The translations under genes and the position numbers were made by a program. A stretch of 64,000 nucleotides of DNA from Owenia fusiformis (taxonomy: Eukaryota; Annelida; Polychaeta; Sabellida; Oweniidae), in NCBI GenBank assembly GCA_903813345.2, contig CAIIXF020000001.1, forward strand, positions 25,287,915-25,351,914, written 5' to 3'. Under the pieces are notes generated by a model. That model worked only from the letters and a program-made list of their open reading frames with translations. It ran no database searches and was not told the DNA's origin. This document shows positions 1,660-35,700 of the stretch, piece by piece. Positions within the stretch are counted from its first letter, which is position 1. Each line of letters begins with the position of its first letter.

Positions 1660-4600
1660 ATGAAGTTTGGGAATACATTGCTCAGACTGAGTGAAAATGA
1701 CAGCAAGTATGGCCACCAATACATGCAGTATAAACTTCTCAAGATGCACGTTAAGGAGCAAAAAGGGAACAACGACCCACAGAAAGAAGTGGAGTTTGTC
1801 CGCATGCTTGAAAGTGAGCTTCAACGGATCAAGAAGCTTATCTCTGCAAAGTAAAGTTATTTTTGTTAAAGAGTTTTAGATTCTTCATATCAGCAAAAAA
1901 CGGCAGACTGCTAACAATCATGCGTCACAAATGTAAAAAAACATACTGTTGTTCTTTCTACATTTGCACATATCATCAAAACAAGAGAAAGTTATGTTAC
2001 GCTTTGTACAATTGTCATCAATGCACGGAAACGTATTATAGATCATCATCCCGATTAAAGTGTAAGAACGCCAAAAAGTAAAACAAATACTAAATTATCT
2101 ACTCTAACGCAAGCAAGGCAACACGTTAAAATTAATTTGCTCAGCATCAGGACCTTTACTTTTATTTTATGTCATGCCAGAGACACAGAAAGATACATTT
2201 TGGAATATGAACTAAGTGCAGGTAGAATCTGATAGATTAATAGGTTAAAGGGGATTCGTTAATGATTTAAAGCGAAACCCTGTTGACGAGAATGTTTGCG
2301 TTTCCTTTTTAGAAATATCAAAGAGACAATTCCAAAGCATCGAAAGAAAAAATAAAACAATAAGGTTATATCGCAATGTTATTTATTTTATATAAAAATG
2401 CCGAAGAAAGTAGGATGTAGGTACTATGTGTATAAAATTTGACGCGAAACAACTAGAGTTTTATAAAGTATATGAATTAATTGACCAAAGCATGAATTTG
2501 AAAATACATACACATAATGGTCCCAAAAACAAGCGAAATGCTTGGCCTGGTAAGTCCTCACACCTCTAACGATTAGTATGTTATTTTAGGATAGACGAAC
2601 TAAAGAGTGCAGGACAAGGTTTGCAAATGTCGGTTAAAATGGCGGATATTTCGAACGAAATCCCTGATTTGCAACGTCTGGGGAACCAAGCAGATGTCTT
2701 AGCGACAGATATGGCTGAAATCGAACGTTTTGTTTTCTACAACAAAGAAGGATTCCGTAAAATTGTGAAGAAGCACGACAAGGTGACTGGAACAAGATCG
2801 TTTTGGTTCGAAGCCCAGAAGCACGCAGAGTTTTTCTCAGACTTAGCACACGAACTTGAAGGAATTCTTATCCAGCTCAGTGACATCTATGAGTATATAC
2901 GGGAGAAGCAGGGAGGTAACAAGGTGTCAGCAGAGCACAAAGTGTCTCAGGTATGATTGACATAGACCTAATTGCTTATCTTATACAATTATATGGACAC
3001 ATCTCGTACGAAATAATGAACCATTACAAACAAACTAGATATAGCTAATATCCATGATAAAAATATATTGAATTTAAAATACATTTCAGGAAACATTCGA
3101 ACGTAAGAGTACAAAATATTGGATAGCAATGGAGGATGCATTTCTACTGAAGACAATGCTAGTGAAGCACATGCCATTGTACATCTTCTCTAGGACAAAG
3201 CAAGAAGATAACAAGAGGATGGCAAACAAAAGGACAAGCATCTTACTTCAGGTAGAATTCATTCCAATCAAGTACAATGTTTTAAGAAGTGCAAGAAACT
3301 AGAAAACAGAGTAAGACTCTTCTCTTCTGTCTCTATTTTCAAAAAGTATTTATTGTTAGGAAAGCCCTCGATGTGCATGTAGAGAGTAAAAATCGGTTCA
3401 TAGAAAACACTATCTAAGCAAAGGGAAAAGACCAAAAACTGTGAAAAGGCTAGCAAGAAAAGCAAACTCTAATTGTTAACCTGTCATTAGAAAAATAGAC
3501 CATTTTTATCCCAAAAACCATCATGATTTAACGTGAAAAAATAATGTCTAACATTCTCCTTCACCCCTTCAATCAAGAACAAATATCAGAATCCAGGACC
3601 AAAACACCAAAGGACATTTCATTCATACTGAAGACAGTTGTTGATGAAAGAAATGACGATAATCATAACATCAAAAATAGTTGTAGACACTAGTACTCGT
3701 AAAAGGAGCATTCGGTCTCAAATGATGTGGGATAGACGAAATCCAGTCTCGAAGCCCATAGACAATTCAAAAGGCCATCATCCGTTCGCAAAGCCGTCGC
3801 CTAATCCATAAAACACTAATAATTCACAATCACACAATAAAATGGTCATCGGGAAAAAATGTAAATGCTTTCGATCCCTATTTCTCAGCTAATGATATTA
3901 TAACAAATTTATTTCACATAGGACCATGGTAAGAAGTTTGAAGAATTCAAATTTCTCCAAAAATCAGGCTGGATATCATCGGTCTACTTCGACAGTACAG
4001 ATCTCCACTCATACCACAGGCGAGTGGCCATGAAAGAAGGCGCTACTCTTATCCGTATACGATGGTAAGATTTGTTCAGTATAAAGATATCTGACCAAGT
4101 TTTCCAAGAAAGAAACATTAAACAAACATAGAAAAAGAGAACAACGCAATGGCATTTTTATCATTCAACACATGTTTCAACAAGATGAATCTTACTGTAG
4201 AAGTATTATATTTCATCCTGCATCAATAGAACCTGGTCAGTTATTCCGGTGGGAATTTTGAAATAAGGACCGGACCTCTCAATTCTACGTTGGTTTAGTA
4301 CGTGTAACTATGAATCTTGATGAATTGATTTATCTCTCCCTTTTGAAAGTTAATACTATAATCAATATCTAACTATATTAGTAGTTAAAGTAACCAGTGT
4401 TGGATGACTTATTCTACAGAATGAGTAACATATACATATTTCAGCTCTATATGCTCTTTACATATTACTTTTTCCATTTCCGTTGTTCAAATGCTTTCCA
4501 GTGTTTCAGGATAGGTTATGATTGCAGGTATGGTGATCCAGATGAATCAAGCGTTGCTGGCGATATGTACCTTCCACGTCCCCCAGCAAAGGGGCTCTTC

Positions 4601-7600
4601 TGTGAGCGGAAGACCCACCACGAGTGTTGGGTTGCAGAAGACAGTCTCAAAGAAAGATTCCCTATCAAGAAAAATAACATCACAGACTTCATAACTGGTG
4701 AGTTGTTACTTAAAGTGCATCTTTAAATAGCTTTTGAAAATTGTTTATCAACTTCGAAAATCTTTTTTTTTTGAAAATGTGACTTCCAAGTTCTGGGAGA
4801 TTCCCAATAGACCTCATGTTATAAAATTACTAAAAGTTAAGTATTTCTTGGACAGATAATATTTTCTTTTACTGGACATATTTTGATTTGCATAACTATT
4901 AGATACATATGGGTGATATGAAAATTGAACCGCTAAAAGTGATGAATATTTAATTAACAATAACTGTCTACTATACCTGCCATGCTATCTGACCCGAATG
5001 AGCCACCTGGTGGTGAAACTGGTAGCTACCTACTCATCTGAGTTATTATGTGTAAATTAATGGGTGATTTAATTGACCATAGTTTAATCTTGAATGAAGG
5101 GAAAAAACCAGCAGCTGAATGTTGTTTGAGCTCAGGAGATAGTGCAATGTCTTTGGCTGAAGAGATACAGAAAGAGATATTGGATAATAAACTTGTACCG
5201 ATGGTGAGAACTGTCTATAAACGATCAGCATTTCAGCTAGAGGAAACCAATGATGTCCGAATAACGTAAGCATAGATACGGAAAGGTATAATTTGTAGAA
5301 TTGCTGTCAACATCTTAATTGTTTATCTTTCTTGTCATTAGCCAGAACTAATCTTTTTTATCTTCTAGAAACGACAACATCAAAATAGTTTTCCATCTGT
5401 TTTGTCATTTATAGCTTGGATCAAGCCCTATCGTTTGTCAATGAACATCCGAGTGTCAGAGATGATGCCACGTGGCATAGAGATGAGACAGAGCTTGAGA
5501 ACAACGAGGACTGGATTAGTTTCCATGCAGCTGTTTTAGAAGTTAAGCTGAAGACTGCTTCCCCAGAATGGTTAGAGGAACTGCTGAAGTCTCCGATTAT
5601 TAGAATGGTATGGTCCCTCTTATTAAAATCAATTAAAACCACAAAATGTACGTTGTATTACCAACGGGATGTTATTCACATATTCTATTTTTTCTATTAT
5701 AATCGTATAGGTGAACAAGTTTTCAAAGTTTCAACAAAGTTGTACATCATACAATGCTGATAAAGTGAAGATATGGCCATATTGGTTCGAAGATGATGAA
5801 ATAAAAGAAGCAAAGAAAAGAACAAAAAAGGTATAGGAAAACTTCGTATTTCAGAAATTCTCTTTCCAAAATATATAGGATGTTACTACATTATGTCATC
5901 ATATTCTATACTGTCACAGTTTGCCATCGTCATTAAATAATTTGAATTTTTGTTCAATACTTGTCCGAGGCATTGTTGCGGAAGAATATAAAATAGCTGA
6001 GCATTAGAAACTATTCAGAATTGCACATTTCATTGTTTTAATGCTCAGACTATGTTATTAGATTTCAATGGCAACTCAGATGAACAGTTTGAAATTTAAA
6101 AGGTGTTTGCTTAAAAACTTGAGTATTGTAATCGGTCTTGCTAGCAAATACCTCCTTTGATACTGGTTTACATCAATTAGTAATCTTTTGTTTTATTTAG
6201 ATTAGACAAGCAAAGGACGAAGACGAAGGAATAGTCAGGGAGGAAAACAAAGAGCAAACATTAAGAAAGCCAACACCGTCATTTGGCCTTGAACCCGACT
6301 ACGCATATGATAATAAGGCTTATGGCGATGATGCACTGGGTGACATAGAGATGGGGATGTTTGAGAAAAAGGCTCCAAGTGTGAATGATGTCCCTGGTGG
6401 TACGATAGGTAGGCAGACGTTGATCTTAAAAGTAAAAACACATTCCAAAATAAAACAATAAATTCAAATATTACGATCCAAAAACATATTCAAAAGGTAA
6501 TTGCTTGTTGCTATCCATTGAGAAATAGTTTCTTGGGCACATAACAATATACTGCCAAAATCAGATGAAAAGATGAGAAATAACAAACTATGAAACTGAA
6601 ATTTTCACATCAATAGTCTATGATCATGATCCTATTTTGATTTAAAGGTACATTTGTATCAACTGTAAATGATAACCCTCCTGGTATAAAAACCATCGAT
6701 ATGACGGAGCACTCATTAAAGAATGGGACAAGTGCGTACAGCAATGGAGGTACAGCCATTACGAAACAGAGAAAACGATTAGCCTCCGAGAACAAACCAG
6801 AAGCCGTATACAATGACAACGATGATAACACCAACTGCTTTGGAAAACCCCAAAAATTCAAGAAGGCTACAAAGCGCTTAAAGATTGAACCGAAAACATA
6901 TTTTGCCAACGAAAGAACATTTATGCAATGGAGTACTGCTGCATTGTTTCTGATTGGTATAGGTGGCACTTTGGTTGGAACGCAAAGTGAGGTTGCAAGA
7001 GTTGTAACAATCGTCTTTTTCGCCCTCGCTCTTTTCATGGTGTTGTATGCCTGCGTGGTATTTTATGTAAGTACAACTTCATTTAATTTCTTGAAGTTTA
7101 ACGTTAGGATGAATTCGAAAACTAGTGAATCCTGATGGAATTCCCAATGGTAAGTTTGGACCAAGTTAGAATTACTTGAATCTATTTCACTGAAGCAAGA
7201 CATCAGTCTGGCAACGTGTTGTATTATACTCGTATAGTTGACATTGATTAATCAATCATTCCAGGTGCGCATGGTTCTAATCAAAAGAGGAACATCGGGA
7301 AGATTTGATGATTGGTTTGGCCCTGCGCTGTTGACGTGCTTACTCATTACTGGCCTTGGTTTTTCATTCTACGCCTTTCACTATTCTTGGACCATGCTAC
7401 GTGAGTGGTGCATTAATTCATATTTAAAACAAACACTGGTTAAATGCTCTCATAATTGAAATGAACACCCTTTCCTAATCTCCTTGTGGCTGAAAATTGT
7501 ATAACTATATTCTTAAGAACTGAAATGGAAAGAACTTGAAAATAAATAGATGTTGATCTAAAATATTTCAGCGCTTACCGTCATACCAATTCAGTACTGG

Positions 7601-8870
7601 GAGTCACCCGTGTGTGTTAAACTTCAATTGAAGAACAATCCGGTGTTCTTCTCTCCGAGTGGATTATCCACCAACGATCCAGAAAGGCGTTTGGCCTGGA
7701 CTTGTGCTGACAACAGAATAGCTCAACTAGACCTGGACACTGGAGAGTTCCTGCAGGTTCATACGATTGGAGGTCTGTTCATAATGATTTATAATTCTTG
7801 TTCGCTGAAGGAATATGCATAGTTTGCATACCTTTCAAATTCGTACAAGTCCGATACTGATATAAATCCCAGGATCAAACAAAATGCGGTAGATGTGTGG
7901 CACGTGTTTCAAGATTGTTATTAATGATAGATTAATTTTCAGATGAGGGTGTGAAAGATTTCGAATGTGTGACATTTGCAAAAGACGCAGATGTGATTTG
8001 GATTGGTTCTGAGGAACCGGAGAATGAGATAATTGAATACAACATTAAAACGAAGCGGAGACTTCGAACTTTGTCTATGGAACCAGTATCAGGTCAGACA
8101 CTGTTTGATTTTACTTTTTTAAAAGAGAGGTTTCTCTACCTCGGATGTACATTAGGATAACTATCATGTACAACATACAATGCATTATCTCAAATTATAA
8201 CGTAGATGATTAAGCATCATTTGTTCTATTCTAGGGAAAAGTACCAAATTAATGGAAGGGCTTGCCTTCATGGACTTTTACTACCCTCTGCAAGATTTAC
8301 CCCAAAAGGTGGTTGGTAACGGGACATTCTTTACGCCGAGACCTCAGAGTTTAGGGTCATTTTACATCCCTGTGGGATTCGGAGGTGTTTCACCAAGATC
8401 GAAGATAAAGGTTCCAGCTGACCTAACTACTGAAAAGATTGGTGCCATGACAACTCTTGGTGATACATTATATACAGTGTTCGATAACGCTCACGTACTT
8501 GTTGGCTATGATATGTTTACAGCGAAAATGGTGAGTATTGGGCGTTCTTTTGTCGTAAAAATATAATGCTTTAAAAACTAAGACTTTTACTATTTCATCA
8601 GATTTAAATATTATAACGTTTTCAAAAAGCTAGAGGTTGAGACAAATGACTTTTACATTTAGTAGTTGTTAACCGCTGCTGTTGGGAAATCGATACGAGG
8701 ATCTATTATTGTTTCAGACGCGTTACCAGATTCCAGGCAACGAGAAGAACTGGGAAGGTATTTTGTTCAGGCCACATAGCTCTGGTATGTGGGTTTACTT
8801 GGCCAAAGACAACCCACCAGAAATATGGAGATTTGACTTCGATACCAACAGTGGTTTCAAAGGATGTTAA
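1660..8870 (+). CDS. SPX-VTC-DUF202 polyphosphate polymerase with extra C-terminal propeller-like domain (VTC4-like)
   Basis: Exons: 1660-1850, 2590-2950, 3090-3251, 3922-4064, 4528-4697, 5100-5265, 5415-5607, 5711-5830, 6201-6408, 6648-7066, 7265-7400, 7572-7772, 7943-8092, 8235-8530, 8718-8870. All junctions keep phase and give 1022 residues. Residues 1-165 are an SPX domain (MKFG start; GFRKIVKKHDK basic helix that binds inositol pyrophosphates in the family). Residues 185-500 are a VTC polymerase tunnel domain that polymerises ATP phosphate into polyphosphate: RIRWYG near 283, ERKTHHECW near 312, VRTVYKRSAFQL, AVLEVKLKT (Glu 440) and VNKFSKF. The basic and acidic active-site positions look intact. 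An acidic linker spans 503-650. DUF202/VTC1 covers 652-755 with membrane helices near 668, 690 and 729. Residues 757-1022 are beta-rich and propeller-like, and by yeast VTC topology would face the lumen of an acidocalcisome or lysosome-like organelle. The ATG gives the canonical SPX start. AATAAA lies at 9002. Confidence 0.93.
4975..5032 (+). repeat. dispersed repeat in VTC intron 5 (copy 1)
   Basis: TACCTGCCATGCTATCTG followed by AGCCACCTGGTGGTGAAACT recurs at 18707-18765. It lies 70 bases before VTC exon 6. Confidence 0.55.
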
Positions 8871-9001: not shown

Positions 9002-9007
9002 AATAAA
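9002..9007 (+). terminator. candidate polyadenylation signal of the VTC gene
   Basis: An AATAAA hexamer lies 132 bases after the TAA stop of the VTC gene, in the T-rich and A-rich DNA expected of a short 3' UTR. It is a sequence match only; the cleavage site is not known. Confidence 0.4.
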
Positions 9008-10979: not shown

Positions 10980-13900
10980 TTACTCGTTGCTTTGTATATT
11001 TTCTTTCTGTCCCTTAGAATCATCTAGTGATATAGGGCCAAACCCATACGGCAGTAACTCTTTAATTGTCACTTTCTTCCAATCATTATTGATACCGGGT
11101 GTTGTCATGACCAAATACCAATCAAAGCCGAACTAAAAACAAAACGCACAATTGCAGTTCAAAATGAAATATATTACTTACTGGGATCATTCGAAAATCT
11201 GAGAGTAAATGTTTCTAAACACTATAACTGCTTCAGTACTTCGAGCAAAACTAATGTTGACCCTCGAAGGAGAAATAAATGCTGAAAATTGCCCCCCCCC
11301 CGACCATATACAACCGTTCCACTTTTATCTGTTGTCTATAGGTTCTTGCTCAGCTAAATGGCAAATCGCCTAATTTTTTTTATTATATGACATGTCTTAA
11401 GTTTTTCTACACTGTACCTCTGCCATGACTTGTCTGCACATCCCACAGGAACCGATAAAGTAGGGAACATCACTACAAGAATAGGGTGAATATATTGAAA
11501 GTGGTCAGCCTTACCTAGGGTAGAGGAGGTCAATGAGCTAAATGGATGGGTACTCATTTAGTCAGTTGACTGCATTATGAAACTTTAGTCAAACGGGGCT
11601 TTATTATGCTATTTTTTCCTACTAAATACATATTCGTGTAATGTAAATGCAAGTTTATTTTTTAAAAATTCACACGACTTCAAAATGCTAATTTAAAACT
11701 TAAAATTTAATGTTTATAGAATTCCAGTGTTATCGTAATTTGCAATTTCTAAAACAAGATACCAGCTTCAAGCTTCTGTAAACAAATTCTAAACAAATGG
11801 TTGCATTGTTAATTATCTTTCTTTTAAAGAGACGATCGGTTGACTAACCATACTAAAATCAATGCAGTGAATTGTCTATGTCCTGCCGATACAGCGTTAG
11901 CAATAGAGACTCTCTCTGCACACATGCACAATCCATATGAAGCGTTTTCCACATTACAACCTGAAATATTTGAACATAAAATGGCAGGGCTATACATAAT
12001 ACATGTAAACTGTGTATTGTCACAATTCAATAATGCATATTATTTTCATGATCAGTCGTGGTGAAACCTATAAAAAGTCTGTATTACTTTTATTGCATTA
12101 TTTTTGCTTCTGTATTCATTAAATTCAAATTATATTAGATATATTAAATATTTGTATTCGCTAAATCATTTTTCCATTCGGTAAAAACGTTTATATGTTT
12201 GTTACAGCAAATGAAGTTTTCAAAATAGGCAATCACTAATTACTATGTGCATTAAATTACATATTTCATTCGCTATGATATTTTTTTGCGTAAATTGTTA
12301 TGTTATTCCTTAAGAGTAACACATTATATGCACAATATTGAATTTCTATTTAATTTACCAAGTGGTTTACTTTTCCATGACATAGTTAATGCATTTTACT
12401 GAAAGCTAATTCGCTATTTACAGAATGCAATAAAGTAATATTCGATAACTTTCGTTGTTGTTCGATATTTTCTCACCTGACCTCGAGATTTACAAAATGG
12501 TCGCGCAGCTATTCTACATCGTTCAAATATATCACGTGGCTGAAAGTCTCGCAAAGTATCGAAAAATAACGAAATTTATCGAATGTGGCATTCGGTATTT
12601 ACCGAATATAAATAATTTAAATACCGAATGTACAAATAATTAATTGAATTATACGTGCGTTAAGGAAAACAAATTGATTCGCTGCATCACACAAATAGCA
12701 GGTCGTTCAATAAGTTCACGGAAAAATGCTCTCATTTCAAGGATTTTTGATATTTTCTCATGAAATATTCACACAATGTATAGAAAATACTTTCTGATTG
12801 AATCTTAAAATATCAGCGTCTCTTATTTGATTGGTTAACTTGACTTTTGGGTAGGCGGGGCACTTTTTACGTCACATTATTCATTAGAAAAACTACAGAA
12901 TAATAGAAATTTATGAGTATATCACCTGAATTTCTTCTCCGCTTTCTACTTGTACATGATATACACTCCCCTCCATAAGTTTGGCAACCTTTTTTCCCCC
13001 ATTGAACTACGTGTTAAATTACCTTTGAATTTTTATTTACTTACCCTGCGATGAAAATACTTATACTATTGATGGAAACGTAATTTGACTTTAATTCCAA
13101 TACCTCCAAATTTTCTCAATTTTTTCCCTCAATTACAATAGGTCGAAAATTGATGATAAATTTGATGAATTTTTGAAAATCGTCATTCCCATGTTATCCA
13201 ATGGGAAATGGTAGGTTTGCCGCAAGTCATATGACAGAATATCCATCCATCCGAGTCCTTGCAAAAATATGAGTTAGGCAGGCAATTGAATTTGCTAACT
13301 TTATTTAACAAAAATTTGATATGTTTCTTCAGGTTCAACAAAGTTATAGGGCTTTAAAGTCAAAATTGTTTTTCAAAAAACCTCTCCCATTGAAATAACA
13401 CAAGAGGCGAAAAATTATTTTCAAAAATGACTTTGAAGCGCTGTAACTTTAATATTCATCAAATAAACTTAACACTTAGTGTTCAAAAAAGTTAGACAAT
13501 TCAATTTTCTATATAAAAATATTTTTTGCTGAAACTTTTACTGAAAACATATCCTGATTTCTGATTTGCCCCGAACCCTCCCTTTCCCATTGGATTACAT
13601 GGGAATGACGATTTTCAAAAATTCATCAACTTTATCATCAATTTTCGACCTATTGTAATTGAGGAAAAAAATTGAGAAAGTTTGGAGGTATTGAAAATAA
13701 AGTCAAGTTACGTTTCCATCAATATTATAAGTTATTTCATCGCCGGTTAAGTAAATAAAAATTGAAACGTAAAGAGGCTTTAACACATAGTTCAATGGGG
13801 GAAAAAGGTTGCCAAACTTATGGAGGGGAGTGTAACTTAATGTAATTGTTACAACTATTGTCCCCTAAGGTTTCAGAAATATTCTCCCTCATGTTTAATG

Positions 13901-23700: not shown

Positions 23701-26700
23701 CAACTTCGTTGTTGCCTGAAAGCCTCGGAGACGTAATTACAAATGAATTAGTGCTTTGAATAATGATGGAACGCGTATTTAAGGCAACATTAAAGCGAAG
23801 TATTAAGTTTATTATTAGCTTTTCTCAAACACACTTATCGTAGCAATAATGCATACATAGGACATGGCTTGAAATTACGCAAAGAGGTTTTCAGACCCTT
23901 ATATAACATAAATCATCTTAGTATGATTATTTTCCATTTTAAGATGTGAACAATAGGGAGGGTAAGCTACACGTTCTTAGATGACTTGCACGTGAACGTG
24001 AAATATCATGACTATAAGGATTACTGTTCCCCTCTCAATATGTTTTCCAGGGACCTAATTACAACTCCTCATAGCTCTAAACTCAGTTGGGCAAGTTATT
24101 ATTACAAGGGGAGAATGAATTCGCAAAGGACAGTACAACTAGTTCTGTCACGTTTTATTTTACTGTCCTTTGGGATTAACTGTCCTCCTGTGTGACAAAA
24201 TGTCGTATTGGATATCAACTTATAAGAAAAAGTGTCACTCTGTATAATCCAAATGATTAATTCACCCTGGGATGACGATTTTTTCAGCTTCCGATACATT
24301 TTTACTTATATACAACTTATGTTCCCAGAGTTTAGTGAAACATACAGGGTGGGCCAAAAACCAATACCCAAATTTAAAGATGAATATCATAATGATATAT
24401 GTTAAACCATGTCATTTATTATATGCCATTTTAAAAATAAATCATTTTCTAACAATATTACACAATCCATTGAAAACCGTTGTTTTCTTTCGGAGTTAGA
24501 GGTTAAAATTTACATCAGTGGTGTCATTGGAGGGACCAAGAGATTATTCACTGCGGATTTCCAAATTGTGGAGAATGGAGGTAAATTTGAACTTTGGCAC
24601 CTTCAAAAGAGGTACATTTATACAGGTCTAGTGCAAAATTCATCACCCATCTTTTAAAATATCAACTGTGTATTACTCTTAAATAAATTCATAATGATTC
24701 AGTCAAGCATACTGAGTGCAGTTGTGGATGTAATATTATTACATAGTTCACTTAGGTTTCATGTCTAAAAAGCCTAAAAACATTAACATATATATTTTAG
24801 ATCCAGACTTCGAAATTATTAATAAGCTAAATTTCTAAATTAATATAACATAGTTAATCTTTACTTTTATCCTCTCACATGCCAAGCTACAGTTATCCAA
24901 TAATAAAGAGGGAAATTTGGGAATTTTCATTTTTTTTGAGTTTTGGACACTCGTTACACCCCTGGTGTCAATTTTAGCCTCTAACTCCACAAGAAAACAA
25001 TGGTTTTTCAATCTGATGGTGTCATGTTGTTAGGAAACGACTAATGATATCGAATACGGCATGGTTTAAGATACATCTTTAAACTTGGGTTTAAGTTTTT
25101 GGCCCATCCTGTATTTTCTTTTTAGTTCATATTCTATTAGCTATATGTGGCACAAATGCCCTCTTAATTATTAAAAATAATCTATTTCAGGTTGAATCGG
25201 AGGAACTTTGTCACATATGTGCTGTATATACGGGAAGCGAGACGTACCCCTGTAGGATTTGTCCTCGTGTATATCACGAGAGCTGTCTTAGGAAGATAGG
25301 GCATTGTTCGAGTCCAGAGTCCAGTAACCTGCTACAAAAAGCACACGAACCCATTGGATGGAGCTGTTACAAATGTGTAAGTGAAATGATCAGTGATTTC
25401 GATTGAAAATACCATGTGCAGTATGGCAAGTGATTTTAGACAGTCATATCTTTCACCGTGAGTACTTTCTGGACATAAATACAGTGGTTTTAATTAAAAC
25501 AATATGTTTTCTTTCAAGTGAAGTACCCATGATGATAAAAATATCGATCGAACAATTCGAAAAATTATGAATAGGGACCCCATGTCAACATTTTTTTTCA
25601 AAATATTGAACCTATATACTCAAAAGAGGATCTCCTTTTTCTGATTTTTGTTGCATGAAAAGATTATTCAACAAGGGGCCTAAAACATCTTCAAAAATAT
25701 AATGGTATTGAAAGTCTAGTCTTGAAGATATCAATTTTTGATGACCAAAATGATGCTGAAAACAATGGATAGCGCGAGTTCTCCCTATGTGAAAATAACA
25801 TGGGATATGTGGTTTTTAACTTAACGCATTTCAATACGCATCCCATTTTCAGAAATTGTCAATATAGTGTAGACGAAACTTTCGATATGTTTAAATTGAG
25901 AAAAACAAAATAGAAAATAAGAAAATAAGCCTAACATTTTTTAAAAAGTGCCAGGGTGGGGCCCTAATCCATAATTTTTCAGAGAGTTGAATTTATATTT
26001 TACTATCATGGGGACTTCACTTGAAAGAAAACATATTGTTTTAATAAAAACCATTGTATTTATGGCCAGAAAGTACTCATTCTCAGATATGACTGCCTAA
26101 AATCACTTGCCATACTGCACATGGACCTTTACTTCTTCAAAGCTTAAAAGTGTTAATTTGCCGTTTCCAAAAATAACACAATTCCCAATTACATACGCGT
26201 GATCTTTAATGCCACAGTTGGTTGTATTCTCCCAAAATACTTCAGAGGAAGAAATTCAATTCCATTTCAATAATGACTTATGTTTCGTTATACAGGACAA
26301 TCTAAGCAGTGTTCTGGCTGAAGAGGAGATGTTTCAACTAATGGAAGATTTTGATATATATGACATAGACAAAGGTGGGTTAATATGTATGACTTTAAAA
26401 AATGTTACCTTTATTGGTTAAATTGGTTGATTGGTGGTCCTTTCACGTGCATGTTATTCAAATATTCTCTTTATCTGATATAATATGATATCTTCGACTT
26501 TGTGACATCCTTGGTCCAATGCTATTTCAATTCTTACGATAGCTGCTTTGGCAGTGAAGCCCGATCTTGGAGGATAACTTTGTGATGGTTATCATACATG
26601 TATTGCTCTCGATAACTCTATACACAATGAGTATATATTAAACCACAATGATTGACTTAAGTGGAAATATCTTCACATATTTACAAGTATATCATCTTTA

Positions 26701-29700
26701 CGACGAGATCTTAGTATTCAGCAGTTGTCGTCGGTTTGAAATCAAATATTATTGCTTCAGAGGTAGATGTGGGATGAAAGATCGAAATTTTGCTCGTATT
26801 GCAGTGCTCACTTCCAACTCTGCCATCTTGTGAGATTGCATACAGGAAATGATATCATTGACTTTTAACTTTTATAAACTTTCCAATATGAAATTGTTGA
26901 CGTATTGAATACGATATTTACTGTACGATTAGTAATACGGATTCACATATTTAAACTATATTTACCAAGGAGGTATATGTGGGATGAAAGAGCAAAAGTT
27001 TGCTTTAATACCTCCTCCGTTGCATTGACCAAATTGGGCGATGGCATCCCGTGAATACAACTCAAAACCGTATCATATCAGATCGTAGCATTTGAAGTGT
27101 CGTCGATACATGTATATCACGGGGGTAAAGCAGACCCGATGATGCAATGAGCTTGCTCGGCGGTATCATGACTGTGTAACGGGTCTTAATGTATAATTGT
27201 GCTCGGTGGTAGGTTCAAACAACGCGGATCCTCAAAGCATGTGCTCATGGTATATTCGTGTTTTAACACCCGTGTATATGAAATAGTAGACAACCATTTA
27301 ATGTGTTATAAATCTAGTCGCTGCGCTGATAGCCCATATGATACAAGCATCATTCACCATTAGTGAAATTAAAAGGAAATACAATACCATCACATATCAC
27401 AATGACAACTTTTGTTATAGACGTGCCATTATTAGAGGGATCTATTAAGCAAAACATGGAAAATGTTTTGATATAGTCAAAATTCATCATTTAATGCAAG
27501 TTTATTTAAAATAGGGTGCCATCTTATAAGATTTAATACAGGAAGTGATGTTATTTAGCTTTTATAAACTTGTCTATAACAGTATTGGCGAGTTGTAGGC
27601 CAGTCAATTGGTGAAAAAAAACAGCCTAACCTAGGACAAATTGCAATAGTTTGCAAACTTAGTTTAAATTGTTGATCAATATTCACCTTATATCATATCA
27701 AAAATATAGGAAAATATAATTAGTGGACAAATGTCAAATTTTACTTCATAGGTACCCCCTACGACCCACCCCTAAATTTGACTATTTGTTTAAAAAAAAA
27801 TTTTTTATCAATAATTAAATAGTTTTTTCAAGTTTTCTTGTTATATTATGATAATAGAATGACAAAACATAAATTTTTACCGAAGTAAACTTTCATTTGA
27901 GGCTTAGAATTTTTTGTTTCACCCTCGACAACCCCAAATGAGTCATTAAATGATTGACATTTCATGTATCTTTTCTTATATTTCTAGACTGGTGCATTCC
28001 AAAATGATTAAAAAAATCATGGTGATACATGTATATATGGACATAACATATATGGGATACCAGTATCATCAGTGGCATATTGGGGAAGAAAAAAAATATA
28101 TAAGTTTTACATTTTCGCCCCGCCCACTTTTGGGGTGACCTTACTTTTGCTAAATAATTTTCAAACTATGCAGTATTTCCTAACAATTCTACAACTTAAA
28201 GAATGATTTGGACATATTCCATCCAATATTAACTTTTATTAGAGTTTGGGACTCCTGTTTTGGACAAAATTATAACTGCAATTTGAAAAATCTGGAAAAT
28301 GGGGGGGGGGTATTTTGTAAGGCTAATACTGTATGTTTTGACATATATTTATATCAAATGTGCCAATTATGGGCCATTGAACTTATTTATGTGCTTATGT
28401 GAAGGTATAATAGTGTATTTGTTTAAAATGAAAGTACAATCACTGATTTAGAAAGATTTGTGATATCTTAAAATACTGTTATCTCAGACTGCTACAGGGC
28501 ATTGCAGATTTTGGACTTCAAGAGAGATTGCGGTTGGCAATAAGTCATCGTAATTTATATTTGCACATATTCCTCTACATTCACCACATGCCATGGAACA
28601 GTCCATTCCATTCTTTCGACATGTGCAGTGCATTGTTGTGCAACCTGTCTTACAATTACATTTGATCACTTCTAAGAGTGAAGAAGGTCCTGCCGGTAAA
28701 GTTGTAGCAACTGGGAGATAGTGGCCATTGTTCATTTCCCATCCCCATTCTTCTGGTGGAAGATTTACCCTCATCCATGATTGTACTTGATGATATACCC
28801 TTAGGCTGTGGTGCTTTGCAGCATCAGATGTAGGTGGAAGCACTTTTGGATGAACAGACTCTCGACTAGAGGCAGCTTTCTCATGAAACTTTTGTAATCT
28901 TAATTTGTTTAAGGTTTGCCCAAGCTTACCTCCTAATAATGATACAAAGGCAGCTTCTCCTTCTTTTGATATCATGTCTTATGTGGCATCATGCAATTTA
29001 AATGTACAAGCGCTTTTCTGAAAGACATCAGATTTCTTTATCTGCCTTTCTGGGACCCGTTTCCCAACTCCAAATAGCCTTGATGTAGTATCACATCCAA
29101 GAAATGCATGAATGAATAGGATGTTGCTGCACACTATGTCACCTAAAGATAGTCTTGTATCTTTGGTGTTCCCTCCATTTCTACGAAGATGAGTTGCATC
29201 TTTTGTGCTAGGGCCATTTTGGTACCCATCAAATACTATTTTAGCATTTTGGTACCTCATCTGCACATAGTATACATATTGGCTTAAAACGTTCTCCCAT
29301 GTAAAACCTTTTTGCCAAGGAATGCGATGAAGAAGGGCGCCTCCATCAATCACATGTTGAAGATCTTTGTCACTTGGTCCTGGTAAGGAAGATATTTTTG
29401 GTGTCCACAATGCTTCTGCCAGTGATTTTACCGCTGGTCTCATTAAAACTTTTGATTCAAACAAAGCCAGTGGGAAGCTTATAACCTAGAGGCTCTGACA
29501 AATCACCAGATCGTGTACCAGCTATGGTAAGGCGTTGATAAAGCAAAATAGGATCTATGTGTATTTCTTCATTGTTAACCTTGACTGCAGTTTTTGATCC
29601 TATGGTCACAGCTTGGCTTTTTCTTTTGAAGAAACACTCAGATACCTTTTTCCCAATCATAGATGCCACAATCACATTGCCTAATTCTTTTGCGTCATAT

Positions 29701-32700
29701 GCATTGGCAGCAGAAGAAGCTGCAACTCTTGTTGCAATGTTACGTAATGACTGTTCAGGAAAAAAGGGATTTCTTTCAACAAGGTATTTCAGGATACATT
29801 TAGCATCTTTGGTGATTCTTGTTGGTGTTGCATCTTTATGCTGCTCACTTGTGGCATATGTTATATCAGTGAGTTCTTGCATTGCACTGCTTATCTCTCC
29901 ACATGCAGGTGAGGAAAGAATCCACACCAGACGCTGAACTTCAGCCATGACCCGGCCTCTCGTGAGACATCCTGTTGACTTGATGCTTCGCATCAGGCAT
30001 TGCTCAATTATGAGATCTGCAGATAATCCTGCCCATGACCTATCTGATCGACGAATGACATGTAGCCCATTCATAAAATAGGCATATACCTCTTGGCTCT
30101 GTTTTTCAAGGTTATTCATTTTTTGGAGAAAGATATACAGACTTTAGGTATAGATTGTGACCTGCTGCTGCAAAATATGGCAACATATCGAGCAAACATT
30201 GGAGATGAAGTGTCCAACTCCCAATCCCTTCTCCTTTTATGAAGTTCCTGAATAGGTCGATCATATCCATATATTGCAACCATAGCTTTGCTGTTTTTAG
30301 ATTTTGAAGTGAGTCCTTCTCAGCTTGAAGCTTTTCTCCAAAGACTGTTGCAACATCAATTTTGTCATCATTGTCATGAACATGATTTATTATCTTATCA
30401 AAGACAAGATGCAATTCCTTCAGGTCAATATGAGTAGTATCATTCTCTACTTCTACAAATGGTTGTTCTTGTGATTTATTTTGTTCTTCATTGGTCTGAT
30501 CAAGACCAATGTCATATATCTGAGCTGCTAAAATAGTATTCAATGCACTATCAATCAGAAGGTGGCCTCTAACTGCCCTAGAAACTGCCTTACCAGATAA
30601 CATATGACCAATTGTATTTTCAGCATATACCAAGCTTAGGACAGAATCTAATCCTGACCCCTCCATGATGTGGCCTACAGAGCCAAGAAAACTCATATCG
30701 GTATGAAACCTAGTCTTGCAACCATTTTGTGAGCATCACTGTCTTCTGGCTCATTTTCTAGAATTTTGTTTGCTTTCCACCAAAGTGGCTGAGATGCAAC
30801 AAACTTCAAAGTGGAGTAGATACATGACAGGTCCATATCTATCAAAGGTAGAAACATGGCTGAAGATTCACCAGGATGTTCCCCCTTATAAACCATCTGC
30901 ATAAATCCTGACCAAAGTGGACAAGGAGTCTTAAAAAGCAAGGATGATTTCCACACAAGATCAAAGCCTGTTAAAGGTTTATCAAATGATTGTCTCACAA
31001 GCTCTTCATACCTCAAACTACTAAACATATCATTGTCATTTGAATAGTAGTGAGTATTGATGCGTCCAATTGCCTCTATGTCTTCTGAAGACACATTGTG
31101 TCTGATCACTGGCCGAGTTGTTCTCACTTTAGGTGTGACTGTTGCAATAATGCCCATTACATGGAACGTATTCTTGCCATCGGGAGTTCGAACGTTGTGA
31201 TCTACACTATCTGCAACATGATGTACAACATGATTAGCAGTAATGTTAGGTATGTCTGTGTTTTGCATCAATGCTGCACTCCTTTGGACACTTCTGGACC
31301 TCAGAATATGAGCAAGTAAACCCATGTTTGTTAAGTGTGTCAATCAAAAATCTTGACTGGAAATGATGATGAAGCTGCACACCTAGACCAAGCTGTAATG
31401 GGGCCAAAAGGGCATTTGGACGAGTGCCCTGCATAATAGCTTGTTCAATTGATGCTACTTTGTTTCTAACATCTTTACCAACAAACAACTTGCTCAAAAC
31501 ATCAACAAAATGTCAGGTAAAAAGTCTAATGACTCATTGATGGAGGACATTGTGTCATATTCAGGATAAGTTTGGGGAGATTGCTTTTTGTCCTTTAAGG
31601 CACTTTTATCAAACTTGCTGCAGTTTCTATAATTTTCTCTTTTTCATCTACTTGGTCTCCTTTGTGTTGATGAAAAGCATGCAATATTTTGGCAGCATTG
31701 TCATGAAACATTTTGTATTCCTTGGATATCACTGATGATAGGTTCTCACCAAAGAATGCTTTCAGCTCTTTCTTCATGTATTTAAAGCTATAGGGTTCAA
31801 TTTCACTGTCATTTATGAAGTCTTTCATCTTGCTAATCAGATCAGTGACAGTTATTTGTTCATCATCATTCGCTTCAAGAAAGGTGACAACTTTATTGAA
31901 AGCATCCTGTCGTTGCATGTCTTTAGGGCGTCCACTCATTCTTTTCATTTTTGGTTGCCTTTCCCCATCACTCAGTTGAAACTGTTGTGGTATGCCCTTG
32001 CCTGATCTAAAGTTACCACTACAAACCTTATGGTACACTGCATCTGCAGATGGTAAATCGTTAGTAAAACTAATACGTGATTTGACCATGTCAGACCAGC
32101 TGATGTTGTTCTGAAACATGGCTGGTAATATTGATACAATATATAGAATAAATATATGTATATTTATATTAAATATATATTATTCATTTATATATTCAAT
32201 GTATAATTGTTATTTTGATATACATTTTGTATTTTTCTTTTTCAACTCCTCTATTCAAATATATTAATTTGGAAAAGCTAATTTTGCAATAGATGAATGG
32301 TTGGATTGGTCAGGTGTTTATTGCAACAAACGTTTGAAGTCATTTTTGAAGTCGACCCTTGAATTTTAGATGGCACTAGTGTTTCTAAGTTTCATTTTAA
32401 AACTGTTTAATGATCAAATAACTAAGAGATAGTGTTTATGGGTCAGGTAACCATGTTGTATTTGTTTTGTTCTCAAATTAGAGTTGATTTAAGCTATAGA
32501 GATGTGATATCTCAGTTGTTATTAAGTAACGGTAATTGGACCCTAATATTTCATCTTGCATCCAACATATTATGAGATGTTTAACAAGACAGGGGAAATA
32601 ACTCCAATGAAAAGTTATCTACAAGACAGAATGGGTTTATATCTGTATTTTTATATCAAATTTGAGGACATATGTGGTATATATTGGAAGTTATATTGCA

Positions 32701-35700
32701 AAAGTAAGGTCACCCCAAAAGTGGGCGGGGCAAAAATTTGAAATTTTAAATATTTTTTTCTTCAACAATATGCAAATTCAGAAATCGGTATTCCATATGT
32801 GTATTACCTGTATATAGAAGTATTACCATGAGTTTTTCCATGGCTTTTGGATAAAGCAATTAAGAAATATATACATTATTATAAAATATTTTGGCCATAT
32901 GACAACATATTTTGGTGTATTTGGGAGGTAAATTGTCAATTGTTGGCACAAAAAAGCATTAAAAGTAGATTTAAATCCACTCTGAATCTTTCCCATGAAC
33001 TAATACAATATAAAAACATGTAAAAAATATTCAAATATGGAGAAATTATTTTTTCCCTTACCCCTAGTCAAAATTGGGGTGGGGGTACCTAAGAAGTGAA
33101 ATTTCATATTTGTCCACTACATATATTTTCCTATATTTTTAATATGTTGCTACATATATATCAATTCACCAATTAAACCATGTTTCAAAACTATTGCAAT
33201 TTGTCAGATGTGAAATCACCAATTGACTGGCCTATTGCTCAAAATCACTTCTAGAAAATGGTACTGGTATATTAAGCTGGTTTTGTGCTTCTTTTTTTTA
33301 TTTTTTATTTTTTTTTTATTAAAATCAATGTAACATATTTACAGGTTGTAGTGGCTATGACCCACAAGAGGGAGTATTAGGTGCCACATAATGGTATTTA
33401 CAATGATTTGTGAAATATTATGAGAAGTGTACATGTAATTGTGTAAAGTATGATATTGTACATAATTGAGAAAATAAACTGATTTAATGGAAATGATTAA
33501 AGGTCTCTTCTACAATAGCAGGTGCAAGCAGTAAAAATGTGTACAATGCTTACATACCGTCTTGCCTTATGTGATATGCAAGAGAGAAAATTCGAAATAT
33601 TTTACCTTTTCTGAGCTATCAGGGCAACATTTGGCTTAACATCTTCTTTGACATACCTATTTTCTTAAAATGTATGGATAAACTATCAATTTCAGCATTA
33701 AGAAGTGTAAATTCATCAGTTCAAAATAGTGAAATGATTCATCACTGCCACATATTAATAATTCAAGTACTAATATACCTGGTCTGCTAAACACAGTGCT
33801 AAAGCTATTATCATCAATATCATCGTCATTCTTGTGCGGAATAAAAGTAATTCATGTGACAAATATGACGACATTCCCAAATGGAGCTGTTGTGTTGAGG
33901 ATGTTGATCCAACTCAGACTAATTGAATTTCGAGCTTTATGGCAGATGACTGAGCAGAGGGGCGTTTGGAAAATTGTGCTTTAAAGATTCATACTTTAAT
34001 AATTGTCCTTCCGTTTTGCCACATTGAGAAACAACATAATACTTTCTAAATCTTGGCTTTGTGTATTCTTCATTGTAAAAGAATACACAAAGCGGGTCAG
34101 TGGTCACAAAACTTGAACTTAATTGAATTGTCATCGATTTGAAAATAAACTATGGTCAATGACTGTTCTATTTCTCAGAATTGTATATAAATCATGTTAT
34201 ATTTGTGTTGCGCGTGACGTTCGGGTCTACCCTGCGTGCAGAGTCTAGTTAAACTACAAAAGGGTATTCGGGTCGGGGGATTCGTTTACAAGCACTCGAT
34301 CGTCTATTATACCTGTGAATACTATCTCGATTCCACCATATATTTAGATTGTATCAAAGAACTTCTCATTTGAACGTATACGTTTACCGAGGTTAATTGT
34401 ACTCGCTTTTAATAATGACTGACGTACAAGAAAGAATAATCACCCGATATATTTATCATCGCGAAATCTACCTACTGATCTCATACAGATATATTATTAC
34501 AGGCAATTAACCCAGATCTATAAATATTGTTTAGTTGCCACGACAGAATGATGATTTGCCTCTTCGGCGACATCTTGTTTAGATGAACCATTTTATAAAT
34601 TAAAAGGCATTGATTCTACTTCAATTTTTTATCAAAGGGAAACAATAATACGTGGTTACCCTATATCGTTATGTTAGGCCCTAGATGTTAATTTTTGGAA
34701 AAAGGCATATACCAATTCATCTAATTTACTTTCTTAATTACATGTCAAAATTATAAAATCTAAAAAGTCATTAGATTTAAGTTGTGCAGACCCAAGTATA
34801 ATTCTCTAAGGGGATCACAATAATACATTTTGCATATAAATAAAAATGCTCTTAATTTCAGATTCCACGATTTCATTAGATGAGTTTTTAAAATACAAAA
34901 ATGAACAATACCAGAAAAGGTTTGGATGTGAGATGCCATTTGAAGATGAAGAAACAGAAAGAAGAAGATTTAAAATAATGGATAAAAATAAAACAGAAAC
35001 CCTTGACTGGTGGGAATTTTTGAACTATGAAAGCACTCATATCTTAACAACCAGGAGTAAGGTAAATATTGAATTGATTAAGGTAACTGGAAAGACCAAT
35101 ATGCTTTTCATAAGACGGGTACTATTGAATTAGCAAACAAATCTGTCTGATCGGATTTTGTCTAAGACATATTTAAGATTCATTGGATCAAATTAATGAT
35201 GCCATTTCGAAGTGCAGATTCTGAGACAATTTTCAGTTTCTTTATGAGTTAGGTAAACTATATACCTAGTTTCACAATTTGACAAAATCGCCTCTCTGGC
35301 ATTTTTTGGACATAGGCTATTTTGATTTCTGTCAGTTCTTCAAATTAGCAAATTCACAAACTTTCACTTTCATGTCAAAAATGGAAAGCAATTTTTAATG
35401 CTATGGCCACATACCATGGGTTTTGAACGAACATGTTTTTCATAGATGCAACATTTTATCCCATGATAACAATGGACGTGCATGTCCTTTGGTATGATAC
35501 CTTTGTATTAAAGTAAACCATGCCATGAAGATGCAGATGCTTTCCTGGATATCCAGGCACGTGAATATAACAATAAGTGAGATATGCCAAGTGGCTGTGG
35601 AGATCCCTATCGGTCGGAAAATATTCACACATGATCACTGTCTGATATCATTTCCCTTATTACCCACCGGGCTCTTTTGGCAAAGTGAAAAATACTAAAT

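Follow-up and report, generated by a model that had tools for sequence, protein, structure and literature searches.

Two Genes for a Predicted Vtc4-Type Polyphosphate Polymerase with an Added C-Terminal Domain in the Annelid Owenia fusiformis

Introduction

Does an animal genome hold a gene for a polyphosphate polymerase of the VTC type? This question is raised by a stretch of DNA from the annelid Owenia fusiformis, 64,000 nucleotides in length and corresponding to C1:25287915-25351914 (C1 being contig CAIIXF020000001.1; the whole stretch is hereafter called the window), in which a first-pass annotation, made from the letters alone, had recognized a complete VTC gene. The published literature, cited here from excerpts of the papers concerned, describes VTC as absent from animals or, among the opisthokonts, as occurring only in fungi (PMC10704438, PMC12526157, PMC10657179), and one of these papers states that the genes for the VTC polymerase are lacking in animals (PMC12526157). 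The premise of the annotation, that animals are generally thought to be devoid of VTC, agrees with all three. Vtc homologues have been reported from trypanosomatids, apicomplexans, fungi and algae, and not from mammalian cells, and acidocalcisomes from insect, sea urchin and chicken eggs (PMC4263762). According to a Drosophila paper of 2026, the polyphosphate kinases of multicellular organisms are still unknown (PMC13061417). Among the literature matches listed, judged by their titles, the beginnings of their abstracts and some passages, none reports an animal VTC gene. Protein-database entries named VTC may exist for some marine invertebrates and, if such entries exist, the family would be recorded yet unremarked within the literature searched. 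What is new here is a predicted VTC gene in an animal, present in two copies, with all its parts assembled in one chain and a further domain added at the C-terminus.

Structure of the Gene

The VTC gene of the window, referred to as copy A, occupies positions 1660-8870 of the forward strand and consists of 15 exons which, in the splice model, join in a single frame into 1,022 codons followed by a stop. All 14 introns possess GT...AG ends, and the motifs RIRWYG, ERKTHHECW, VLEVKL and KFSKF all occur in the spliced protein; the coordinates, the number of exons and the four motifs reported by the first-pass annotation were right. The window contains no N, and the introns of copy A show a GC content of 31.5%, compared to 34.4% for the window. 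The limits of the domains coincide with those of the exons or lie close to them, with SPX in exons 1-2, VTC in exons 3-8, the membrane helices in exons 10-11 and a propeller-like domain in exons 12-15. The features are distributed as follows (window coordinates; aa, amino acid residues; supporting evidence in brackets):

1660..8870, + strand: full coding span of copy A (splice model, Pfam and PDB matches)
1660..1850, + strand: exon 1, start of SPX, MKFGNTL..., aa 1-64 (counterpart in copy B 64% identical, C6:28657381-28657572)
2590..2950, + strand: exon 2, remainder of SPX with the KIVKKHDK ligand cluster, aa 64-184 (splice model, alignment)
3090..3251, + strand: exon 3, start of the VTC catalytic domain, K193 = yeast K200 (splice model, alignment)
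3922..4064, + strand: exon 4, VTC, beginning of RIRWYG, R283/R285 = yeast R264/R266 (splice model, alignment)
4528..4697, + strand: exon 5, VTC with ERKTHHECW, K314 = yeast K281 (splice model, alignment)
5100..5265, + strand: exon 6, VTC, R384 = yeast R361 (splice model, alignment)
5415..5607, + strand: exon 7, VTC with VLEVKL, E440 = yeast E426 (splice model, alignment)
5711..5830, + strand: exon 8, end of VTC with KFSKF, K465/K468 = yeast K455/K458 (splice model, alignment)
6201..6408, + strand: exon 9, weakly conserved linker (splice model, comparison with copy B)
6648..7066, + strand: exon 10, end of the linker and DUF202/Vtc1-like helices 1-2, K654/R661 = yeast channel K622/R629 (Pfam, PDB alignment)
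7265..7400, + strand: exon 11, membrane helix 3 (splice model, PDB alignment, hydropathy)
7572..7772, + strand: exon 12, start of the propeller-like C-terminal domain (splice model, profile comparison)
7943..8092, + strand: exon 13, propeller-like domain, DFECVTFA...IWIGSE (splice model, profile comparison)
8235..8530, + strand: exon 14, propeller-like domain, NGT sequon at aa 902 also in copy B (splice model, comparison with copy B)
8718..8870, + strand: exon 15, end of the propeller-like domain and stop, terminal Cys1022 also in copy B (splice model)
9002..9007, + strand: AATAAA, located 132 bases past the stop and perhaps serving as a poly(A) signal, but which may occur by chance in AT-rich DNA (sequence)

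A chance chaining of exons, or the joining of unrelated ones, is excluded by the continuous frame, the canonical introns and the values of the Pfam and PDB matches. The reading of copy A as a pseudogene was likewise rejected.

Domains and Conserved Residues

The spliced protein of copy A matches the VTC family of Pfam (PF09359) at 2e-57, with 194.9 bits for a cut-off of 23, over residues 189-475, and the DUF202 family (PF02656) at 2e-9, with 38.2 bits for a cut-off of 23.4, over residues 654-713. In copy B, a second gene located elsewhere in the genome, the match to PF09359 reaches 3.4e-51. Among the PDB chains compared using phmmer, yeast Vtc4 is the best match of copy A (3.1e-61), followed by weaker matches to Vtc3 (2.6e-30) and Vtc2 (9.4e-19), and residues 643-746 match Vtc1 (2e-15). 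The SPX profile (PF03105) weighs in the opposite direction, remaining below its cut-off of 27.8 bits in both copies, with 22.7 bits (1.2e-4) in A and 21.1 bits in B, although residues 1-224 of copy A align to the SPX domain of yeast Vtc4 (chain 8i6v_E) with 65.4 bits. The assignment of SPX, VTC and DUF202 made by the annotation is therefore confirmed by profile for the last two, SPX being supported by its residues and by this phmmer alignment.

Copies A and B were aligned with yeast Vtc4 and with the VTC protein of a contig from a marine metagenome-assembled genome (MAG). The 16 yeast Vtc4 positions that were checked are identical in A, in B and in the marine protein. The inositol-pyrophosphate site (Y22, K26, K129, K132, K133 and K136, in yeast numbering) is conserved at six positions out of six in both animal copies, and the catalytic and tunnel positions checked in the VTC domain at ten out of ten in each. 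Residues K200, R253, K281, K294, R361, K455 and K458 of yeast Vtc4 are those which we take to be tunnel residues. The catalytic R264, R266 and E426 and the SPX residues Y22, K26, K133, K129, K132 and K136 are named in PMC9911596, together with K622 and R629 as channel residues of yeast Vtc4, and the latter two align with K654 and R661 of copy A in the phmmer alignment. Such a pattern should belong to an active SPX-gated polymerase, unlike that of a decayed one. On its testable features, the protein can be placed, from its sequence, in the Vtc4-type VTC family, SPX being counted through residues and alignment.

Compared to yeast Vtc4, the animal protein exhibits the same SPX-VTC-DUF202 order and 39% identity over the VTC domain, in which it carries two insertions of about 26 and 14 residues. 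The match to yeast Vtc4 ends at residue 716 of 721 (8i6v_E), whereas the animal chain adds about 265 amino acids after helix 3. The SPX-EXS phosphate exporter XPR1, the known SPX protein of animals, also possesses an SPX domain but is an EXS transporter and not a polymerase.

The marine sequence used in the alignment (L021:646-2230, contig NZIV01000064.1, from a Neomarinimicrobiota MAG) encodes an SPX-VTC protein with a VTC match of 3.9e-59 and an SPX match of 28.3 bits, above cut-off. It was the only relative retrieved by scans of genome contigs with a few short peptides, the first of which gave none and the second this one, scans of a kind that does not demonstrate absence. Its contig, binned as bacterial, may be misbinned DNA of a protist or a giant virus; no relative of it occurred in a pattern scan of IMG/VR or in a tblastn comparison with a phage collection. 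The VTC gene of this contig adjoins a short membrane open reading frame (ORF) that looks Vtc1-like by eye and gives no DUF202 match.

A Second Copy of the Gene

A six-frame search of the 498-Mb assembly (525 contigs) with PF09359 yielded six exon matches in two places, copy A and C6:28.634-28.636 Mb on another contig. Copy B, at C6:28615059-28657572 on the reverse strand, consists of 15 exons encoding 996 amino acids with no internal stop, and its 14 introns all have GT-AG ends. The single gene pictured by the first-pass annotation is thus one of a pair, the second intact copy being located on C6. Where a choice existed, the exon ends of copy B were picked to fit the phases of copy A, which makes the agreement in phase partly a matter of choice: for exon 12, either of two acceptors separated by two codons can be used, and for exons 9 and 12 the donor is not unique. 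The choice affects neither the open frame, which runs through all 15 exons, nor the GT-AG ends of the introns.

The two copies share 55% identity over 948 aligned residues, distributed as 51% for SPX, 64% for VTC, 61% for DUF202 and 51% for the C-terminal part; in the linker (residues 496-640) identity falls to 38% over 78 aligned residues. Codon positions 1, 2 and 3 differ by 0.34, 0.25 and 0.63, respectively, dN amounts to 0.375, and dS, which is not computable, is taken as being at saturation. These values indicate that A and B are an old pair, both long kept under purifying selection. A frameshifted and broken extra exon 1 is found at C6:28614098-28614256, directly downstream of exon 15 of copy B, and is probably the remnant of a tandem duplication.

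The C-Terminal Domain

The last quarter of the copy A protein, encoded by exons 12-15 (residues 757-1022, about 265 residues after the third helix), had been left out of the domain list of the first-pass annotation, which is otherwise sound in naming SPX, VTC and DUF202. Its relationships were approached by means of a bacterial comparison set, in which 23 of 100 genomes matched the Phytase-like family PF13449, with a total of 29 matches, of which 14 were available as loci (L022-L035). A first profile was built from seven of these 14 loci and a second one from 12, using ORFs from both strands picked with a model of the first seven; L022, which has no ORF under that model and is the strongest Phytase-like match of the set (4.5e-41), and L034, too long with 910 amino acids, were left out of the second. 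Compared using hhalign, the profile of A and B aligns with that of the seven bacterial proteins with a probability of 93% and a score of 54.2, whereas 49 column shuffles scored at most 19.0 and the reversed profile 17.0. Against the 12 proteins, the probability is 94% and the score 56.5 over 200 aligned columns, with controls at or below 23.5 (2.5%) for 100 column shuffles and at 17.0 (0.2%) for the SPX-VTC profile of A and B. The five loci absent from the first run give, by themselves, 90% and a score of 50.2. A profile hidden Markov model of the bacterial set scores 34.8 bits for A and 14.9 bits for B without filters; with filters, in the first run, A alone was retrieved. The two bacterial proteins that were scanned, L024 and L031, belong to the SdiA-regulated family PF06977, with Phytase-like as second match.

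Several results weigh against this relationship, and others add nothing to it. Copy B does match Phytase-like PF13449 at 1.2e-5, which speaks for the relationship, but with 25.8 bits, under the cut-off of 27.6, and copy A shows no match; a search of the whole genome with PF13449 also gave no match, perhaps because exons were scored singly, a result which fits a weak relationship. As single sequences against the bacterial profile, A reaches a probability of 84% and B only 42%; phmmer comparisons of either copy with seven of the bacterial proteins, pair by pair, yielded nothing, and the C-terminal profile matched no PDB chain up to E 10. Searches of NCBIfam and PHROGs gave one meaningless match (E 0.18) and none, respectively, and blade repeats were not significant in a self-comparison of the profile (best off-diagonal P 0.15).

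Taking both sides into account, we assign the domain with moderate confidence to the SdiA-regulated/phytase-like superfamily, whose families are beta-propellers. The likeness to the bacterial proteins of PF06977 and PF13449 lies in profiles that align along the greater part of the domain and in "EG" and acidic motifs. The bacterial proteins are separate ones, whereas the animal domain, below the Pfam cut-offs, is fused to a polyphosphate polymerase. Several of the bacterial proteins have, by eye, lipoprotein-like N-termini.

Topology and Proposed Mode of Action

The best reading of the two genes, and a probable one, is that of an inositol-pyrophosphate-gated polyphosphate polymerase and translocase of the Vtc4 type, a single chain of which would combine a sensor, a catalytic domain, a channel and a lumenal part. 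Given a cytosolic N-terminus and three helices, the C-terminal domain should be lumenal, with which a glycosylation sequon common to both copies (residue 902 of A, 875 of B) and three cysteines of A kept in B (771, 801 and 1022) agree. The yeast complex comprises three Vtc1 chains plus Vtc3 and Vtc4 (PMC9911596). Yeast Vtc4 works together with Vtc1, whereas no separate Vtc1 partner was found in the animal genome, in which the only DUF202 loci found are A and B, a missing match not being proof. Owing to this, several chains of A, of B or of both are expected to assemble into the pore. The "single-chain VTC enzyme" of the annotation therefore holds in so far as one chain carries all the domains, and not for the pore, presumably built from several chains, the activity itself being predicted.

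Under this reading, cytosolic SPX would bind inositol pyrophosphates when phosphate is plentiful, and ligand binding would release the VTC tunnel domain; in the presence of Mn2+, this domain would transfer the terminal phosphate of ATP to the growing polyphosphate chain. The chain would then be threaded through a pore to which several copies, of A, of B or of both, contribute their DUF202 helices, and would reach the lumen of an acidic organelle resembling an acidocalcisome or a lysosome. There, the propeller tethered at the pore exit might bind or process the polymer as it emerges, or the calcium ions that accompany it as counter-ions, a role which is a guess and the least certain part of the scheme.

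Some observations fit this scheme less well. Only two of the three helices of copy A pass the hydropathy threshold, helix 1 being deduced from the Vtc1 alignment, and residues 925-946 of copy B, inside the C-terminal domain, pass it as well and could alter the topology. The replacement of the yeast hetero-oligomer by one type of chain is a presumption, and a search of the genome for the vacuolar proton pyrophosphatase, which occurs in the acidocalcisomes of protists, found none.

Genomic Surroundings

The contig of copy A also harbours a Hox cluster, at 18.0-18.5 Mb, about 7 Mb from the gene. Homeodomain matches in the genome number 47, of which ten were read as loci, nine of them on C1; in one locus (L012), the homeodomain is followed by the peptide KLTGP, which we take to be a mark of spiralian Lox5. 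On C6, a XPR1-like gene with SPX and EXS exons (C6:22578362-22591262) is located about 6 Mb from copy B. A search for COX1 found no match. Downstream of copy A, the zinc-binding region of PF00383 matches part of an ORF on the minus strand at 11824-12039 (4.8e-5; its 23.6 bits fall slightly short of the cut-off of 25), and a minus-strand ORF at 11397-11504 contains a SCGMCRQ motif. The linkage to a cytidine deaminase (CDA) announced at about 2 kb is accordingly retained as CDA-like matches, at a corrected distance of about 2.5-3.2 kb and with a profile score just short of its threshold.

Further along the window, a RING exon of the KIAA1045 type (PF16744, 2.3e-21) occurs at 25095-25406 (+), and a weak EF-hand exon at 34840-35133 (+), 9 kb past it; both perhaps belong to one PHF24-like gene. 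Six long ORFs of 164-228 amino acids each, adjoining or overlapping and with a cysteine-rich end, extend over 28484-32179 (-) and may represent a mobile element or a retrocopy. The segment 38001-40000 shows a strong GC skew (0.264) and contains, on the minus strand, an ORF in which VAYQYS-like units recur, seemingly as a tandem repeat.

Origin of the Gene and Alternative Readings

We tentatively propose, at somewhat short of an even chance, that the VTC polymerase of the opisthokont ancestor was retained in some animals and remodelled there into a self-sufficient SPX-VTC-DUF202-propeller pair, with a pore devoid of Vtc1 and a lumenal propeller that would receive, trim or pack polyphosphate with calcium. 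A gain by horizontal transfer into the animal lineage, instead of retention from the opisthokont ancestor, appears possible though on the whole doubtful: it is in keeping with the absence of animal VTC from the published surveys, as excerpted, and with the fact that this is the one animal genome searched, whereas a gene fully intronised, duplicated and diverged past a computable dS is at least no recent arrival. In addition, no viral relative was found in four IMG/VR scans, three with the animal proteins and one with the marine MAG protein, each using a few short peptide patterns and unable to demonstrate absence, which makes this weak evidence.

That the protein is real without being a polymerase, and acts as a regulatory subunit like Vtc2 or Vtc3 or as a repurposed scaffold, for example in membrane traffic, is unlikely. 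In its favour, a regulatory function is assumed for the central domain of Vtc2, Vtc3 and Vtc5 in yeast (PMC7381174, in excerpt), and the polymerase activity is here a prediction; against this stand the checked catalytic and tunnel residues, kept without exception in both copies, and a best PDB match to Vtc4, those to Vtc3 and Vtc2 being weaker. The claim that this animal may synthesize polyphosphate with VTC is thereby borne out in so far as an animal chromosome carries a complete gene whose catalytic residues are kept, the activity itself remaining a prediction.

It is even less likely that exons 12-15 form a separate gene and that the polymerase ends after helix 3. The domain borders on or near exon borders would suit such a boundary, as would the position of exons 14-15 of copy B, some 16 kb from exon 13. 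However, exons 11 and 12 of each copy are compatible with a phase 1 junction, the exons that follow and their order are identical in A and B, no other locus of the genome was matched by the last 149 residues, and the C-terminal parts have kept about half of their residues in common.

Contamination by an alga, a fungus or a symbiont, or a misassembly, is very unlikely, in line with what the annotation had argued on contamination. VTC genes are indeed typical of fungi, algae and protists (PMC4263762) and one does occur on a marine MAG contig, but the window is free of gaps and also holds the cytidine deaminase match and the KIAA1045-RING exon, the 14 canonical introns share the AT-rich composition of the window, the Hox cluster lies on the same contig, and the intact, long-diverged paralogue with a 15-exon layout is located on another contig that also carries XPR1.

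Implications

Two intact animal VTC genes offer a directly testable enzyme for the question of how animals synthesize polyphosphate. Their presence would call for a revision of the published account of how polyphosphate synthesis evolved, in favour of either a loss in some animals and not at their base, or a gain, and would extend the SPX proteins of animals beyond XPR1. They also represent a predicted polymerase with a C-terminal domain that yeast Vtc4 is without. Should the proposal of an ancestral VTC kept and rebuilt in some animals be true, no animal polyphosphate synthase would have been defined genetically before this pair, which could also account for the polyphosphate-rich, acidocalcisome-like granules of invertebrates.

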